NCBI RefSeq assembly: GCF_017811755.1
Contig: NZ_JADDJF010000006.1
Location: 1-64,000 of the forward strand
Source of the DNA: Pararhodobacter sp. SW119
GTDB lineage: Bacteria > Pseudomonadota > Alphaproteobacteria > Rhodobacterales > Rhodobacteraceae
Reading direction: 5' to 3'
DNA length: 64,000 nt
In this document: one piece after another, positions 23,667-56,004 of the stretch
Numbering within the stretch: the first letter of the stretch is position 1
How the letters are laid out: every line of letters begins with the position of its first letter
The notes under the pieces: generated by a model
Database searches by the model: none
What the model saw: the letters and a program-made list of their open reading frames with translations, nothing else
What the model was told of the DNA's origin: nothing
Translations under genes and position numbers: made by a program

Positions 23667-25817
23667 ATGAGCGAACGCAAGAACGGATTGGCCGACTGGC
23701 GGGCGCTGGCCCAGAAGGACCTCAAGGGGCGCGACCCCGAAAGCCTGACCTGGCAGACACTTGAGGGCATCCCCGTCAAGCCGCTCTACACCGAGGCCGA
23801 CCTGGAAGGACTGGACCATCTGGACACTGTGCCGGGGATTGCCCCCTTTACCCGCGGAGTGCGGGCCACGATGTACGCCGGGCGGCCCTGGACGATCCGC
23901 CAGTATGCGGGTTTTTCAACCGCCGAGGAATCGAACGCGTTCTACCGGAAGGCGCTGGCTGCCGGACAGCAGGGCGTGTCGGTCGCTTTCGACCTTGCCA
24001 CGCATCGTGGCTACGACAGCGACCATCCGCGGGTCGAAGGTGACGTCGGCAAGGCCGGCGTCGCCATAGACTCGGTCGAAGACATGAAGATCCTCTTTGA
24101 CGGCATTCCGCTGGACCAGGTCAGCGTGTCGATGACGATGAACGGCGCGGTCATTCCGATCCTTGCGAATTTCATCGTCACAGGCGAAGAACAGGGCGTC
24201 GATCGCAAGCAGCTTTCAGGGACCATCCAGAACGACATCCTGAAGGAATTCATGGTCCGCAACACCTACATCTTTCCGCCCGAGGCCTCGATGCGGATCG
24301 TGGCCGACATCATCGAATACACCGCGAACGAGATGCCGCGCTTCAATTCAATCTCGATCTCCGGCTACCACATGCAGGAGGCAGGCGCGAACCTCGTGCA
24401 GGAGCTTGCCTTCACCCTCGCCGACGGGCGCGAATACGTCCGCGCCGCGATCCATCGTGGCATGGATGTGGATGCCTTCGCCGGCAGGCTGAGCTTCTTT
24501 TTCGCGATCGGCATGAACTTCTTCATGGAAGCCGCAAAGCTGCGCGCCGCACGGCTTCTCTGGCACCGGATCATGTCTGAATTCGAACCGAAAAGGCCGC
24601 AAAGCCTGATGCTGCGGACGCACTGCCAGACATCGGGCGTCAGCCTCGCCGAACAGGATCCCTACAACAACGTGGTCCGCACCGCGTACGAGGCGCTCTC
24701 GGCCGTGCTGGGCGGGACCCAGTCACTACACACCAACGCGCTCGACGAAGCCATCGCCCTGCCCACCGACTTCTCGGCCCGGATCGCCCGCAACACCCAG
24801 CTGATCCTGCAGGAAGAAACCGGCATAACCCATGTCGTCGATCCGCTGGCCGGCAGCTACTATGTCGAAAAACTGACAGCCGACCTGGCTGAAAAGGCCT
24901 GGGAACTGATCGAGGAAGTCGAGGAACTTGGAGGCATGACAAAGGCGGTCGCCACCGGTATGCCGAAGCTCAGGATCGAGGAGACCGCCGCGCGCCGTCA
25001 GGCCCTGATCGACCGCGGCGAGGACGTTATCGTCGGGGTCAACAAGTACCGCAAGGACAAGGAAGACCCGATCGACATCCTCGACATCGACAACGCCAAG
25101 GTGCGCGAGTCGCAGATCGCGCGGCTGGAAAGGATGCGGGCCAGCCGCGATCAGGCCGCCTGCGACGCCGCGCTGGCCGAGGTCGAACGCCGCGCGCGCG
25201 AGGGCGGCAATCTGCTCGAGGCCGCGGTCGAAGCCGCGCGCGTCCGCGTCAGCGTGGGGGAGATCAGCATGGCGATGGAAACGGTCTTCGGCCGCCACCG
25301 GGCCGAAGTGAAGACCTTGGCCGGCGTCTACGGCGCGGCCTACGCGGGCGACGAGGATTTCGCCGCCATTCAGCAGGAAGTAGCCGATTTCGCCGAAGCC
25401 GAGGGACGCAGGCCCCGCATGCTGGTCGTCAAGATGGGTCAGGACGGGCACGACCGCGGCGCCAAGGTCATTGCGACCGCCTTCGCCGACATCGGCTTCG
25501 ATGTCGATGTCGGCCCGCTCTTCCAGACGCCCGAGGAAGCGGCGCAGGACGCCATTGACAACGACGTGCATGTCGTCGGCATCTCCAGCCAGGCGGCCGG
25601 GCACAGGACGCTGGCGCCGAAGCTGATACAGGCGCTGAAGGAACAGGGCGCCGGCGACATCCTTGTCATCTGCGGCGGTGTCATCCCGCAGCAGGATTAT
25701 GCCTTCCTGCGCGATCAGGGCGTCAAGGCGATATTCGGTCCCGGCACCAACATCCCCGATGCCGCCCGCAACATCCTGCATCTCATCCGCGACACGCGCG
25801 CGGGCCACACGGCGTAG
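23667..25817 (+). CDS. scpA: Methylmalonyl-CoA mutase
   Basis: This 716-residue adenosylcobalamin enzyme isomerises methylmalonyl-CoA to succinyl-CoA. It is a single-chain type with the catalytic TIM barrel ([39 protein letters not shown]) followed by a C-terminal B12 domain. GQDGHDRG supplies the cobalt-ligand His at about residue 595. Together with pccA and pccB it completes entry of propionyl-CoA to the TCA cycle. The epimerase gene was not recognised in the window. Confidence 0.96.
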
Positions 25818-52930: not shown

Positions 52931-52943
52931 TGCCATACGTTTG
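52931..52943. repeat. 11-bp tandem repeat array 3, left fragment
   Basis: One unit, TGCCATACGTT, plus TG remains left of the mobile element. The array continues beyond the right end at 55961. Joining the two flanks after removing one target duplication restores a regular five-unit array. Confidence 0.9.
52936..52943. repeat. Left target-site duplication TACGTTTG
   Basis: TACGTTTG here is repeated exactly at 55955-55962, immediately outside the right inverted repeat. The eight-base length fits IS1/IS1595-type insertion. Confidence 0.9.
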
Positions 52944-52962
52944 GGTAGTGGGTCAGTTTGAA
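52944..52962. repeat. Left terminal inverted repeat (IRL)
   Basis: GGTAGTGGGTCAGTTTGAA matches the complement of the right end at all 19 positions. Confidence 0.93.
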
Positions 52963-53030
52963 ATGTGACGGTTACAGTGCATTGTAAGGTTCCGTTTGCG
53001 CTGCGCCCCGCCAGGCCCCATATTGAGGGC

Positions 53031-53255
53031 ATGACAGACAAGCCCAAGAGACCCCGCGACGCGAACCAGTTGGCCAAGCACATTGTGGACCTGGCGACAG
53101 GGGATGTGCTGCCAGAAAAAGAAAAAGACCCCTCCGCTGTCGAAAGGGGTCTTAAAGGCGGATCAAAGGGCGGGAAAGCGCGGGCTAGTCGCATGACCGC
53201 TGAGGAAAGATCAGAGGCGTCACGCCGGGCTGCTCAATCTCGCTGGTCTCGATAG
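53031..53255 (+). CDS. Passenger gene: small basic KGG-type protein
   Basis: The 74-residue, strongly basic protein contains GLKGGSKGGKARA and ends in TAEERSEASRRAAQSRWSR, resembling KGG/histone-H1-like small proteins. It may bind nucleic acid. Start at the ATG 53031 after TTGAGGGC. Its last 71 bases overlap, antisense, the end of the winged-helix gene, an arrangement that suggests compaction inside the element. Confidence 0.65.
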   Translation: MTDKPKRPRDANQLAKHIVDLATGDVLPEKEKDPSAVERGLKGGSKGGKARASRMTAEERSEASRRAAQSRWSR

Positions 53256-53703
53256 CCGCATCTTTTTCATCCTGCTTTTTTCCGAAACTGCGCCCCGGAT
53301 ACCACTCCCTGAGCGCCCACTTGCCGCGCTGAAGGCTTACGATATCCCCCACTTGCTTTTGTCGGCGGTTGAGAATTGACCCTACGCTGTTTGTTTTGTT
53401 TCCCGTCAGCAGCAGCCCCCCGGCTTCCATAGCCTCGACTAGATCAGCAGGTGACATGGGCTTGCGCTTGTTTGCGAGGATAATCTTTGCAGCGTCGTGA
53501 ACCTTCATGCCGAGAAAAGGGTTTTCCCCGTTCGGCTCGTGCGCGTCGCGACGGGGCTGAGGTTCGCGATCCTGAGCTTCGTTGGCGACGGAAAGCCCCG
53601 CCATGTGCCGAAGGTTTCGGATTGTCCTATCCAGCTCATCCCGCTTGGCCTCTAGGTCGGCGATGACCGCAGCGTAGTGATTTTCATCGATTTGGCTTGT
53701 CAT
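53185..53703 (-). CDS. Passenger gene: predicted HARE-like winged-helix protein
   Basis: In this 172-residue protein an N-terminal coiled coil (about 8-35) and polar linker lead to a winged-helix region (about 66-133: VHDAAKIILANKRKPMSPADLVEAM, then KWALREW). The latter resembles the HARE-HTH/HB1 fold seen in restriction-modification and chromatin-linked proteins. The assignment is by pattern only. It reads toward the left end and overlaps the KGG gene. Confidence 0.6.
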   Translation of the reverse strand: MTSQIDENHYAAVIADLEAKRDELDRTIRNLRHMAGLSVANEAQDREPQPRRDAHEPNGENPFLGMKVHDAAKIILANKRKPMSPADLVEAMEAGGLLLTGNKTNSVGSILNRRQKQVGDIVSLQRGKWALREWYPGRSFGKKQDEKDAAIETSEIEQPGVTPLIFPQRSCD

Positions 53704-53853
53704 GGTGGCCCTCCTCAAGTATAAGAGCCGCATGCGGACGCTTATGCAGCCCGCATGCGACATGCCCCAATCGCTTAGGTTTTGGAGCGGTTCACTTTCT
53801 TGGCGGACCCATCTTTCTAAACCTCTCGCGATCTGGCCCGGTAAGGCATTTCA

Positions 53854-53878
53854 ACCCGCAGCGTTCCTAGCGCTGCGG
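53854..53878 (+). terminator. Terminator-like hairpin upstream of the transposase
   Basis: CCCGCAGCG and CGCTGCGGG pair perfectly around a 7-base loop and are followed by TCTCTTG. Positioned before the transposase promoter, it could block transcription entering from the host and so limit transposition. Confidence 0.5.
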
Positions 53879-53974
53879 GTCTCTTGTTGCCTGATCCCCT
53901 CGCCGCGTTCAAGCAGAAAAACTACAAAGCAAGCAGGTTCTGCAAATATTCTGCGTTATTGGCGCATTTTTCTC

Positions 53975-54002
53975 TTGAAACTGACCGAATGCGTAGGCTA
54001 AT
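53975..54002 (+). promoter_or_regulatory. Putative transposase promoter
   Basis: TTGAAA (53975-53980) and GCTAAT (53997-54002) are 16 bases apart. A transcript would begin around 54009, only a base or two before the ATG at 54011. Confidence 0.4.
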
Positions 54003-54010
54003 GTTGGGTC

Positions 54011-54898
54011 ATGAACAAGCTAGATAACAAAACCCGCACATTGATCTTGCGCTTGCTTTGCGAGGGGAACAGCATCCGAGCCACTTCGCGAATCGCTGAT
54101 GTAAGCAAGAACACCGTAAACAAGCTGCTGATCGACGCGGGTAAGGCGTGTGCGGACTATCACGACGCTAACGTTCGTAACGTTCGCGCTTCGCTGGTTC
54201 AGTGCGATGAGATTTGGTCGTTCACTTACGCCAAGGAAAAGAACGTGGCTAAGGCGAAGGCCGCGCCCGAGGATGCTGGCGATACTTGGACCTGGACCGC
54301 GCTGGACAGCGAAAGCAAGCTGATCGTGTCATATCTGGTCGGCGGCCGTGACAGCGAGTACGCGACGGCCTTCATGGACGATCTGCGTGACCGTCTTGCG
54401 AACCGCGTCCAGTTGACCACAGACGGGCACAAGGCATACCTCGAAGCCGTCGAGGGCGCGTTCGGTGCTGACGTGGACTATGCGCAGTTGGTGAAATTGT
54501 ACGGCGAACCCACAGGCCAGAAGGGGCACGAGCGCAAGTATTCGCCTTCGGAATGCACCGGAACTAAAAAGCGTCTGATCGAAGGCCAGCCGGTCAAGGA
54601 ACTGGTCAGCACGTCGCATGTCGAGCGGCAAAACCTGACGATGCGGATGCACATGCGCCGCTTCACCAGGTTGACTAACGCCTTTTCCAAGAAGGTTGAA
54701 AACCACGCGCACGCCGTGGCGCTTCACTTCATGTTCTACAACTTCTGTCGCATCCACCAAACGCTACGCGTCACGCCTGCTATGGCTTCCGGGCTGACTG
54801 ATCGGCTTTGGGATATCGCTGATCTGGTGGCGCTGGTCGAAGCTGCCGAGCCTTCCCCGGCTAAGCGCGGGCCGTACAAGAAGCGGCTGCCTGCTTGA
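54011..54898 (+). CDS. DDE transposase, IS1/IS1595-like
   Basis: This 295-residue transposase has an N-terminal HTH (about 10-45: RATSRIADVSKNTVNKLL), then the catalytic core with Asp66 (VQCDEIWSF), Asp138 (TTDGHKAY) and Glu205 (SHVERQNLTMRMHMRRF). These are placed as a DDE triad. The RMHMRRFTRLTNAFSKK block is typical of proteins usually labelled IS1-family transposase. The 8-bp target duplication agrees. It reads as a single uninterrupted frame, so the enzyme looks functional. No good ribosome site precedes the ATG. Confidence 0.93.
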   Translation: MNKLDNKTRTLILRLLCEGNSIRATSRIADVSKNTVNKLLIDAGKACADYHDANVRNVRASLVQCDEIWSFTYAKEKNVAKAKAAPEDAGDTWTWTALDSESKLIVSYLVGGRDSEYATAFMDDLRDRLANRVQLTTDGHKAYLEAVEGAFGADVDYAQLVKLYGEPTGQKGHERKYSPSECTGTKKRLIEGQPVKELVSTSHVERQNLTMRMHMRRFTRLTNAFSKKVENHAHAVALHFMFYNFCRIHQTLRVTPAMASGLTDRLWDIADLVALVEAAEPSPAKRGPYKKRLPA

Positions 54899-54952
54899 CT
54901 TTATGTCATCTCTGTTTATGCCGATCTGGTGTCAGATGCAGGGAAGGGAGCG

Positions 54953-55261
54953 ATGGCTCTAACAAACAAAGACGCGTCTATTGTCCTGGGAATGATTGCT
55001 AGAGGAGACAAGCAGCACAACATCGCGGCTTGGTTCGGCGAGAACCAAGCGCGTATTGTGGAGGTAGAAAAGGGATCTCACGGCTCGCTACCACTAGCCC
55101 CAGCCGCTGACTTGCCGCCGAAAGGTTCGCCCGGTCCGAAAGGTCGACGCGTAAGGGGGGTTGCCGGCAGGGCATTAGCGGCCATAGAGGCTGGCGACGT
55201 AGATGGAGCCAAAAAGCTTCTTCAAGACGGGATCGCCGCTTTCGACAAGCACGAAACCTGA
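54953..55261 (+). CDS. Passenger gene: small HTH-like protein
   Basis: This 102-residue protein has an N-terminal helix-turn-helix-like part (VLGMIARGDKQHNIAAWFG, about 9-27), then a basic Pro/Gly linker (PPKGSPGPKGRRVRG) and a C-terminal helix pair. AAGGGAG precedes the ATG at 54953. Function unknown; it could regulate the element. Its 3' end overlaps the methyltransferase gene by 40 bases in convergent orientation. Confidence 0.65.
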   Translation: MALTNKDASIVLGMIARGDKQHNIAAWFGENQARIVEVEKGSHGSLPLAPAADLPPKGSPGPKGRRVRGVAGRALAAIEAGDVDGAKKLLQDGIAAFDKHET

Positions 55262-55920
55262 TAGTCGCCGTCGCGCTCTAAGTTCCTGCGGCATGGCGGT
55301 ATCCAAACCACCTTGGTTGCTTGTTCTTTGGCCTCAAGATCCCAGACGAACCACCCGTATCCGGTCGCGGTGGACGCCTTTGGGTCAACTCGGCCTTTGA
55401 CCATCGGTACTCTTTCACAAAATTGGGCAAACAAGGCAGGCGGCGCATTTCGGAAAACTCGCTCGTATCGCCCGACACTTTCCAGAAATACCGTTCGGGC
55501 CAGGATCGCCACGCCTTTCCGCGCGACCGACAGCGCTCTGGCAACAAAATCCTCCGCTATGCGGAATGGTGGGTTTGTTATAACCCAATCATGCGAGCCT
55601 ACCTCGTAGGGGAAGGTCAGAAAATTACGGATCTCATTTGATCCATAAGGGTAGGCATCAAATCCGTCGACGTGGGCGAAATATTCTCGAAGAGGCCCGG
55701 ACATGTAGCCTCTGCCGCACGCTGGCTCTAGGCACGTTGCGTCGCGTACCCTATCTAAACCAATCACATGCTCCACAAGGGCGCGTGTAGCCCAGGGCGG
55801 CGTGGGAAAATCGTCAGCGCTGTTTAGCGGTTCGCGGCGCTGAGCCATCACTGCGTGGGACATGTTTTGCATCAGGAACCCTCCAGCCTCTCGCGCAACT
55901 GAATCAGAGTTCTTTCGCAT
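55222..55920 (-). CDS. Passenger gene: adenine-type DNA methyltransferase
   Basis: The 232-residue SAM-dependent methyltransferase has motif I EPACGRG (65-71) and motif IV NPPF (116-119), which indicate amino-group (N6-adenine-type) methylation. It resembles small phage and plasmid methyltransferases; there is no obvious separate target-recognition domain or partner nuclease. The ATG at 55920 is used; the frame extends ten codons further, into the terminal repeat. It reads inward from the right end. Confidence 0.8.
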   Translation of the reverse strand: MRKNSDSVAREAGGFLMQNMSHAVMAQRREPLNSADDFPTPPWATRALVEHVIGLDRVRDATCLEPACGRGYMSGPLREYFAHVDGFDAYPYGSNEIRNFLTFPYEVGSHDWVITNPPFRIAEDFVARALSVARKGVAILARTVFLESVGRYERVFRNAPPALFAQFCERVPMVKGRVDPKASTATGYGWFVWDLEAKEQATKVVWIPPCRRNLERDGDYQVSCLSKAAIPS

Positions 55921-55935
55921 TGTGAATCCCGAAAA

Positions 55936-55954
55936 TTCAAACTGACCCACTACC
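55936..55954. repeat. Right terminal inverted repeat (IRR)
   Basis: This is the exact complement of the left end over 19 bases. It is followed directly by the target duplication TACGTTTG. Confidence 0.93.
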
Positions 55955-55962
55955 TACGTTTG
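55955..55962. repeat. Right target-site duplication TACGTTTG
   Basis: Identical to 52936-52943. It contributes the first bases of the resumed 11-bp array. Confidence 0.9.
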
Positions 55963-56004
55963 CCATACGCTTGCCATACGCCTGCCATACGCTTGCCAGC
56001 AGGC
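55961..56004. repeat. 11-bp tandem repeat array 3, right fragment
   Basis: Units start at 55961, 55972, 55983 and 55994; the last is the degenerate TGCCAGCAGG. It lies 108 bases beyond the gpsA stop. The distal block GGTTTTCGTTAACCG follows at 56078-56092. Confidence 0.9.

Follow-up and report, generated by a model that had tools for sequence, protein, structure and literature searches.

The DNA analyzed here, referred to as the window, is a stretch of 64,000 nucleotides from Pararhodobacter sp. SW119 (contig NZ_JADDJF010000006.1, positions 1 to 64,000), and within it lies a mobile element of 3,011 bp at positions 52944 to 55954. This element encodes a transposase of the IS1 family of insertion sequences (IS), a small basic protein termed KGG, a protein with a HARE winged-helix domain, a small helix-turn-helix (HTH)-like protein, and a DNA methyltransferase. 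From its comparison with 68 related elements, we consider it probable that it belongs to a discrete lineage of IS1-type transporter insertion sequences (tIS), which has KGG as a dedicated accessory gene and carries genes for defence or addiction as cassette-like cargo. The features of the locus are as follows (ORF, open reading frame; E, expectation value).

52936 to 52943: left copy of the 8-bp target-site duplication, TACGTTTG, an exact match with the right copy
52944 to 52962, plus strand: left terminal inverted repeat, GGTAGTGGGTCAGTTTGAA; the 68 other elements are delimited by ends of this type
53031 to 53255, plus strand: KGG protein, 74 aa, core accessory gene of the IS1 lineage, found in 69 of 69 elements
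53185 to 53703, minus strand: slot 1 cargo, a predicted long N-terminal helix followed by a HARE winged-helix domain (PF05066, E 9.9e-10; 69% identical homologue in locus L042)
53854 to 53880, plus strand: terminator-like hairpin of 12 pairs between cargo and transposase gene, a match to the consensus only
53975 to 53986, plus strand: end-like 12-bp sequence TTGAAACTGACC, a candidate operator beginning 36 bp upstream of the transposase start codon
54011 to 54898, plus strand: IS1-family DDE transposase, 295 aa (Pfam and NCBIfam models; at least 571 confirmed relatives)
54953 to 55261, plus strand: slot 2 cargo, small HTH-like protein, ORF open from 54929 (63% identical homologue convergent with a 64% identical methyltransferase in locus L141)
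55222 to 55872, minus strand: slot 2 cargo, phage-type DNA methyltransferase, ORF open to 55950 (phrog_799, E 3.1e-52)
55936 to 55954, minus strand: right terminal inverted repeat, 19 of 19 positions complementary to the left one
55955 to 55962: right copy of the target-site duplication, TACGTTTG, exact over 8 bp

Boundaries and family of the element

The sequence-only reading of this locus had described a bounded mobile element with five ORFs that include a HARE winged-helix protein and a DNA methyltransferase, and this description was borne out. The ends are perfect over 19 bp, an exact 8-bp duplication surrounds them, and in two members of the same genus (L195 and L196) the site is empty: a TetR-like gene adjoins gpsA, the matches to the two flanks being separated by 33 bp and 192 bp, respectively. 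The gpsA genes of these genomes are 82% and 81% identical to that of the window; the names TetR-like and gpsA come from reading the ORFs. The insertion point between these genes is an 11-bp tandem repeat, TACGCTTGCCA, present in four copies at 55955 to 55998. Its own genome has one full copy of the element and, elsewhere, a different one of the KGG-IS1 type (G000:C115:1-2469; L143, L174), which is cut by the contig start and retains a GTGTCTCA-type left end.

A scan of contigs of the Genome Taxonomy Database (GTDB) confirmed at least 571 relatives of the transposase, of which the best 80 were kept, mostly from Alphaproteobacteria, with a few from other groups; as these were chosen by transposase identity, they are not a random sample. 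A script searched 112 loci for their ends, and 71 passed the thresholds of at least 17 of 20 matches between the end repeats and a length below 5 kb. Removal of the duplicates L059 and L107 left 69 elements, including that of the window (L001). Overlap between genomes was noted as well, since the L172 element is the L041 element and the L178 element is the L039 element. The 41 rejected loci were presumably affected by contig ends, short flanks or a lack of convincing ends; L051, L074, L091, and L097 are among them despite long flanks, and L003 is the window's own copy again. The 69 elements are 1,947 to 4,416 bp long (median, 2,946 bp) and share ends of about 19 bp of the type GGTAGTG..TCA.TTTGAA, together with an IS1 transposase of about 295 aa. 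The target duplication was no filter criterion, and 62 of the 69 nonredundant elements have a perfect one of 8 bp. Because of these duplications and the empty site in two genus members, the boundaries of the insertion unit are beyond chance.

The transposase belongs to the IS1 family and not to IS1595, some members of which the sequence-only reading had named as carriers of passengers. It matches Pfam DDE_Tnp_IS1 (PF03400) with 35.8 bits, above the cut-off of 24.1, and the NCBIfam IS1 model with an E of 2.2e-18 and 66.9 bits, which is under the equivalog cut-off of 100; no IS1595 or ISXO2 model was among its Pfam or NCBIfam matches at E values up to 1. Relatives in three plasmid records are annotated as IS1 family transposases. 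Short inverted ends starting with GG and target duplications of about 8 to 10 bp are a feature of the IS1 family, and the present elements share it, with ends starting with GGT and 8-bp duplications. Classical IS1 is about 0.77 kb long, has the genes InsA and InsB, and carries no cargo. The present elements differ from it in their KGG gene and in their length of 1.9 to 4.4 kb with cargo, and the transposase of the window is a single ORF of 295 aa in place of the InsA/InsB frameshift layout. As single-ORF IS1 members exist, this layout sets the element apart from classical IS1, not from the IS1 family.

KGG as a core gene of the lineage

KGG had been listed among the passengers, a status that the comparison overturned: it is a core gene of the lineage. 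A KGG profile, applied to the 69 elements only, found the gene on the transposase strand and upstream of the transposase in all 69, and tblastn makes it visible in many of the 41 rejected loci. Throughout the lineage it encodes a small basic protein of about 65 to 80 aa towards the left end, with 12 invariant residues among 31 aligned members; one plasmid record labels it histone H1.

We then asked for KGG alone in 244 order-level genomes and obtained 16 matches in 12 genomes, two of which are KGG motifs within long ORFs and 14 of which have the N-terminal domain. Ten of these 14 accompany a transposase of the same type (two of them in the element's own genome, one broken, and one in L172, the same element as L041), and two (L163 and L165) lie beside a left end without a transposase. 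Of the remaining matches, L170 has neither end nor transposase, and L175 has a partial domain near an end-like sequence. In L163 and L165, the transposase is absent from the 12 kb fetched, and these loci are decayed or nonautonomous derivatives.

A search for the transposase in 349 phylum-level genomes gave a match in 21. Twelve of the matching places were fetched, ten with a nearly full-length match and two, in distant genomes, with a partial one; other fragments and known copies were left aside. All six loci with transposases 53 to 71% identical have KGG, ends matching at 18 to 20 of 20 positions, and a perfect 8-bp duplication; in one of them, L184, transposase and KGG are both broken. KGG was found at none of the six loci with transposases 31 to 48% identical, two of which (L188 and L192) have less than 2 kb upstream. 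Plasmid records with a match numbered 12, and in the five examined KGG occurs with four transposases (62 to 70% identical) and not with the 32% identical one of L117. Since KGG is found with transposases of 53 to 71% identity but not with those of 31 to 48%, it marks, by this homology evidence, a discrete part of the IS1 family.

Cargo in two slots

The interval between KGG and the block upstream of the transposase gene is termed slot 1, and that between the transposase stop codon and the right end is termed slot 2. The distance from KGG to the transposase is 397 to 2,323 bp across the 69 elements, and 67 of them have an ORF of 115 aa or longer in slot 1. Slot 2 has an ORF of this size in 15 elements, including that of the window; the element ends at most 60 bp from the matched transposase end in 40 elements and more than 150 bp from it in 26.

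Several lines of evidence indicate that the contents of slot 1 are exchanged. (i) In 100 pairs whose transposase genes have a DNA identity of 78% or more, no single alignment runs unbroken from KGG to the transposase, and homology on the transposase side starts a median of 36 bp before the gene. (ii) Near-related transposases come with different cargo in the pairs L105/L111, L054/L056, L085/L098, and L041/L042; L105 and L111 are about 0.03 per site apart, yet their cargo is RosmerTA and a KGG-P63C protein, respectively. (iii) When ten cargo labels ("other" being one), derived from clustering except for the winged-helix label, which was assigned by eye, are placed on the transposase tree, 35 changes are counted, with a possible minimum of 9 and a mean of 46.2 for shuffled labels. 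Judged from the tree, the labels are clustered yet turn over fast, and these alignments indicate that the contents of slot 1 change largely independently of the transposase. The elements of the window and of Marivita (L042), a pair under the 78% threshold, share one alignment of 73% that spans KGG, HARE, and transposase, running through slot 1 because both carry HARE. It resumes only in the last 22 bp, so the HTH-methyltransferase pair of the window sits exactly in slot 2.

The cargo set comprises 126 ORFs of at least 115 aa. Among the matches listed, the Pfam families were HTH_3 (23), ImmA/IrrE peptidase (20), P63C (8), nSTAND1 (7), AAA_16 (7), NYN (4), Abi_2 (4), SocA (3), N6/N4 methylase (2), and HARE (2); the PADLOC models were RmrA (11 to 15 members each), PD-Lambda-2_B (15), capP (11), RmrT (4), PD-T4-5 (4), and AbiD (4); and the NCBIfam models were HigA (13) and SocA (3). 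These counts overlap, as HTH/ImmA proteins match several models. In total, PADLOC matched 258 families in the cargo, the top family with 15 of the 126 ORFs, and 21 families with one member each in a control of 126 of the 304 flanking ORFs from the same loci. By cluster, toxin-antitoxin or anti-phage-like cargo is present in 34 of the 69 elements, or in 40 when STAND ATPases are counted. RmrA and RmrT, which make up RosmerTA, lie side by side in L083 (E 5.7e-134 and 9.5e-29), and L090 has an RmrT-like partner (E 3.3e-11). Clustering placed an RmrA-type protein in 11 elements and an RmrT-type neighbour in 6 of these. Representatives were also confirmed for PD-Lambda-2_B (L046), PD-T4-5/AbiD (L098), an HEC-04/OLD-like ATPase (L112), a type II methyltransferase (L100), PemK (L103), and SocA (L095); PADLOC gave no match to the P63C representative and a weak one only to the STAND representative. 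The RES/Xre toxin-antitoxin genes next to the Acidiphilium copy (L114) are situated at its right end and further out, and are not counted as cargo. One cluster of cargo ORFs, classed as P63C-type from its representative, has eight members (L050, L053, L066, L070, L075, L085, L088, and L111), all with a KGG motif near the N terminus; they may be fusions of the KGG motif of the core protein to cargo.

In the window, slot 1 is occupied by the HARE protein, whose ORF opens to 53763 and whose likely start is the ATG at 53703. Its homologue in L042 is the only other HARE carrier found, and that element has no slot 2 cargo and no methyltransferase; none of 393 other genomes of the same family has the HARE protein. 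One alternative is that HARE is a regulator of transposition and not cargo, a role in which winged-helix proteins replace one another. By eye, 7 of the 69 elements have a coiled-coil and winged-helix-like protein in slot 1 (L001, L037, L042, L045, L069, L076, and L101), and the other 62 do not. The model of the L037 protein (predicted local distance difference test score [pLDDT], 67) looks like a winged helix, with PDB matches mostly to winged-helix domains and none below an E of 0.016; the AlphaFold model of the HARE protein, built from two sequences, had a mean pLDDT of 54 and was not used. Moreover, the tree groups the L042 transposase with those of L041 and L045 and not with that of the window, although KGG and HARE are shared. 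However, HARE occupies the slot that elsewhere holds RosmerTA and other genes, and we regard a regulatory role as quite unlikely. The idea that all winged-helix cargo proteins form one family was considered and rejected: a HARE profile had no matches beyond L001 and L042, and the single sequences of L037, L045, L068, and L076, when aligned with HARE by hhalign, gave probabilities below 1%. Searches of PDB sequences with KGG, the methyltransferase, and HARE returned nothing useful.

Slot 2 of the window holds the HTH-methyltransferase pair. The methyltransferase probably starts at an ATG near 55872 and not at a GTG inside the repeat, because several relatives align only from about residue 20 to 30. 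The sequence-only reading took it, from its motifs, for a putative adenine-type enzyme. It resembles the phage methyltransferases of phrog_799 in sequence and differs from them in lying on an IS-type element together with a convergent small HTH gene. It is 52.3% and 53.4% identical to proteins of the Sinorhizobium/Rhizobium phages phiLM21 and RHph_Y25, and viral contigs contained one distant methyltransferase. Among the 112 loci, no other carrier was found apart from the window's own copies, and the other 68 elements contain no close relative. In the same family, 25 of the 393 other genomes have relatives. Flanking sequence of up to about 1.5 kb was inspected at 19 such loci, and only one of them (L137/L140) lies just inside a same-type end. 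At this locus (L140:81-1190, genome G242), the right end region of a further element of the type is present and the rest lies beyond the contig start; 166 bp inside the end is a divergent, 33% identical methyltransferase, and next to it a possible Mrr_N-like winged-helix gene (E 0.0054, below the cut-off). A tRNA gene is a usual border of integrated elements. In another genome (L141), the pair recurs at 63% and 64% identity, 173 bp from a tRNA-Ser gene on a contig that ends within the methyltransferase gene, and as far as this contig end shows no HARE gene is beside it. By these homologues, the pair also occurs in phage-like or integrative contexts. Since L042 has HARE without the methyltransferase and L141 has the pair without HARE, the two cargoes have, on this comparison, separate histories and are not co-conserved.

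Two other explanations for the pair were weighed. The HTH and methyltransferase genes may have been captured by chance, when a new right end beyond phage-derived DNA was used, and be neutral freight. In line with this, they fit exactly between the stop codon of the transposase and the right end, have a single carrier among 69 elements, and occupy a slot that is filled by unrelated ORFs elsewhere; however, both ORFs are open, and conservation of the pair at 63 to 64% in another genome suggests selection on it, so that we consider capture by chance rather doubtful. Alternatively, the methyltransferase could be a passenger for anti-restriction or host modification: by methylating the DNA of host and element, it would let the element or a linked phage or plasmid survive restriction. 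The nearest relatives in the phage collection come from phages of rhizobia (51 to 53% identity), the pair also lies near tRNA-Ser, and no nuclease domain was found in the five proteins of the element, so that within the element itself no cognate nuclease of a restriction-modification system was seen. On the other hand, an IS moves within cells and itself meets no restriction on entry, and no close relative of the enzyme exists in the other elements; this makes the explanation unlikely.

Regulatory signals and interpretation

A conserved block, ATGCTTGAC...AAGTTCATAT, precedes the transposase gene. Of the 21 elements with GGGTCA ends, 18 have a match to their own end before this gene (1.95 expected), mostly at -54/-53 or -28. 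The end-like sequence before the transposase gene suggests self-repression by the transposase or KGG through this candidate operator, and the hairpin at 53854 to 53880 may insulate the transposase gene.

IS10 and IS50, whose control by Dam methylation the sequence-only reading had noted, have GATC in their ends and transposase promoters. In the 69 elements, no GATC is present in the ends, and 17 sites lie within 100 bp upstream of the transposase gene (23.6 expected). Counts of GATC and GANTC in the ends, in the adjoining 80 bp of the interior, and in these 100 bp upstream are close to or lower than those of shuffled sequence, except for GATC inside the right end. There, 29 sites in 80 bp represent a mild excess (17.3 expected), with 23 sites inside the left end (19.7 expected). 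As GATC and GANTC are not enriched in repeats or transposase promoters, there is no indication of a switch of the Dam or CcrM type.

The same observation weighs on the proposal of the sequence-only reading that the methyltransferase sets a DNA mark for HARE to read, and that this mark times transposition or shields incoming copies. Both genes are indeed in one element, and L140 leaves room for a similar combination that recurs. Against it, the genes occur apart in L042 and, as far as its contig end shows, in L141; the family search returned 25 genomes for one and none for the other; and a single one of the 19 methyltransferase loci has a same-type end. We consider this proposal very improbable, and the pairing of methyltransferase and HARE looks incidental. 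This outcome comes near the one that the earlier reading had itself named as speaking against it, a lack of co-conservation of the passengers with the transposase. Its observation of the element is sound, but the emphasis is misplaced; a coherent cargo-bearing IS1 lineage was exposed instead.

Outside the element, ARAGORN called a tRNA at 24567 to 24661 (minus strand) of the window with an odd four-base anticodon (ggca), probably a miscall.

In the cargo-bearing IS1 lineage that we propose, the transposase would move the whole unit and make the 8-bp duplication. Perhaps with KGG, it would bind the ends and the end-like operator before its own gene and keep expression low. The cargo would help the host or punish loss, so that the element persists, and HARE and the methyltransferase would act separately.

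A number of observations weigh against parts of this reading. (i) The putative role of KGG is deduced from its conservation; the protein had no explanatory match in Pfam, PDB, or NCBIfam, and the short upstream sequences of L188 and L192 concern two of the six distant loci that lack it. (ii) L089 and L094 have no slot 1 ORF of 115 aa, and the cargo labels are clustered on the tree beyond shuffled ones, with none of 200 shuffles as low. (iii) Cargo of 35 of the 69 elements is unassigned to defence or toxin-antitoxin functions (29 if STAND-type ATPases are counted in). PADLOC matches to ATPases and HTH/M78 proteins are partly at the domain level and to redundant models, and the PD-Lambda-2 representative matched best with the B model, and no model matched its 160-aa partner. 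PADLOC also gave no match for the HARE protein, and neither it nor the window's methyltransferase is a known defence protein. (iv) In the other 48 elements, only three own-end matches precede the transposase gene (3.9 expected), and a scan for the sigma-70 consensus found no promoter in the window's element.

Among known systems, Tn7-like transposons and other defence carriers have variable defence cargo beside conserved transposition genes. The present elements resemble them in this respect, at about 3 kb, with a single transposase and with no targeting proteins seen. The tIS of the IS1595 family use a different transposase. Here, ends and transposase enclose passengers, as seen from the sequence and the empty site, and a whole lineage has cargo, a fixed accessory gene, and recurrent slot borders. 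An excerpt of PMC9330008 describes tIS as IS derivatives that carry passenger genes. For Tn3-family transposons, a section of PMC7157771 describes a module with varied toxin-antitoxin pairs at a set position; the transposase there is unrelated and about 1,000 aa long, and the present element is much smaller, with no resolvase seen. We found no description of KGG-bearing IS1 elements in the open-licence literature, a search that did not cover ISfinder.

A bolder interpretation, which we put forward tentatively and hold to be somewhat less probable than its converse, is that this IS1 clade consists of miniature defence carriers. KGG would be a second protein dedicated to transposition, acting as end-binding partner or as repressor in an InsA-like role, and the interval between KGG and transposase would be a true cassette slot in which defence and addiction modules of one or two genes are exchanged at fixed borders. 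If so, coiled-coil and winged-helix proteins like HARE of the window, which in some copies are seemingly alone in slot 1, would represent undescribed systems of immunity or addiction that consist of one gene.

The lineage provides a genomic home for a small protein family without a Pfam name. It also indicates that some very small bacterial transposons carry, in a recurrent slot, exchangeable genes of toxin-antitoxin and defence-like type. Elements of this kind could disseminate them outside large islands, mainly in Alphaproteobacteria, and the uncharacterised proteins of the slots are candidates for new defence systems.

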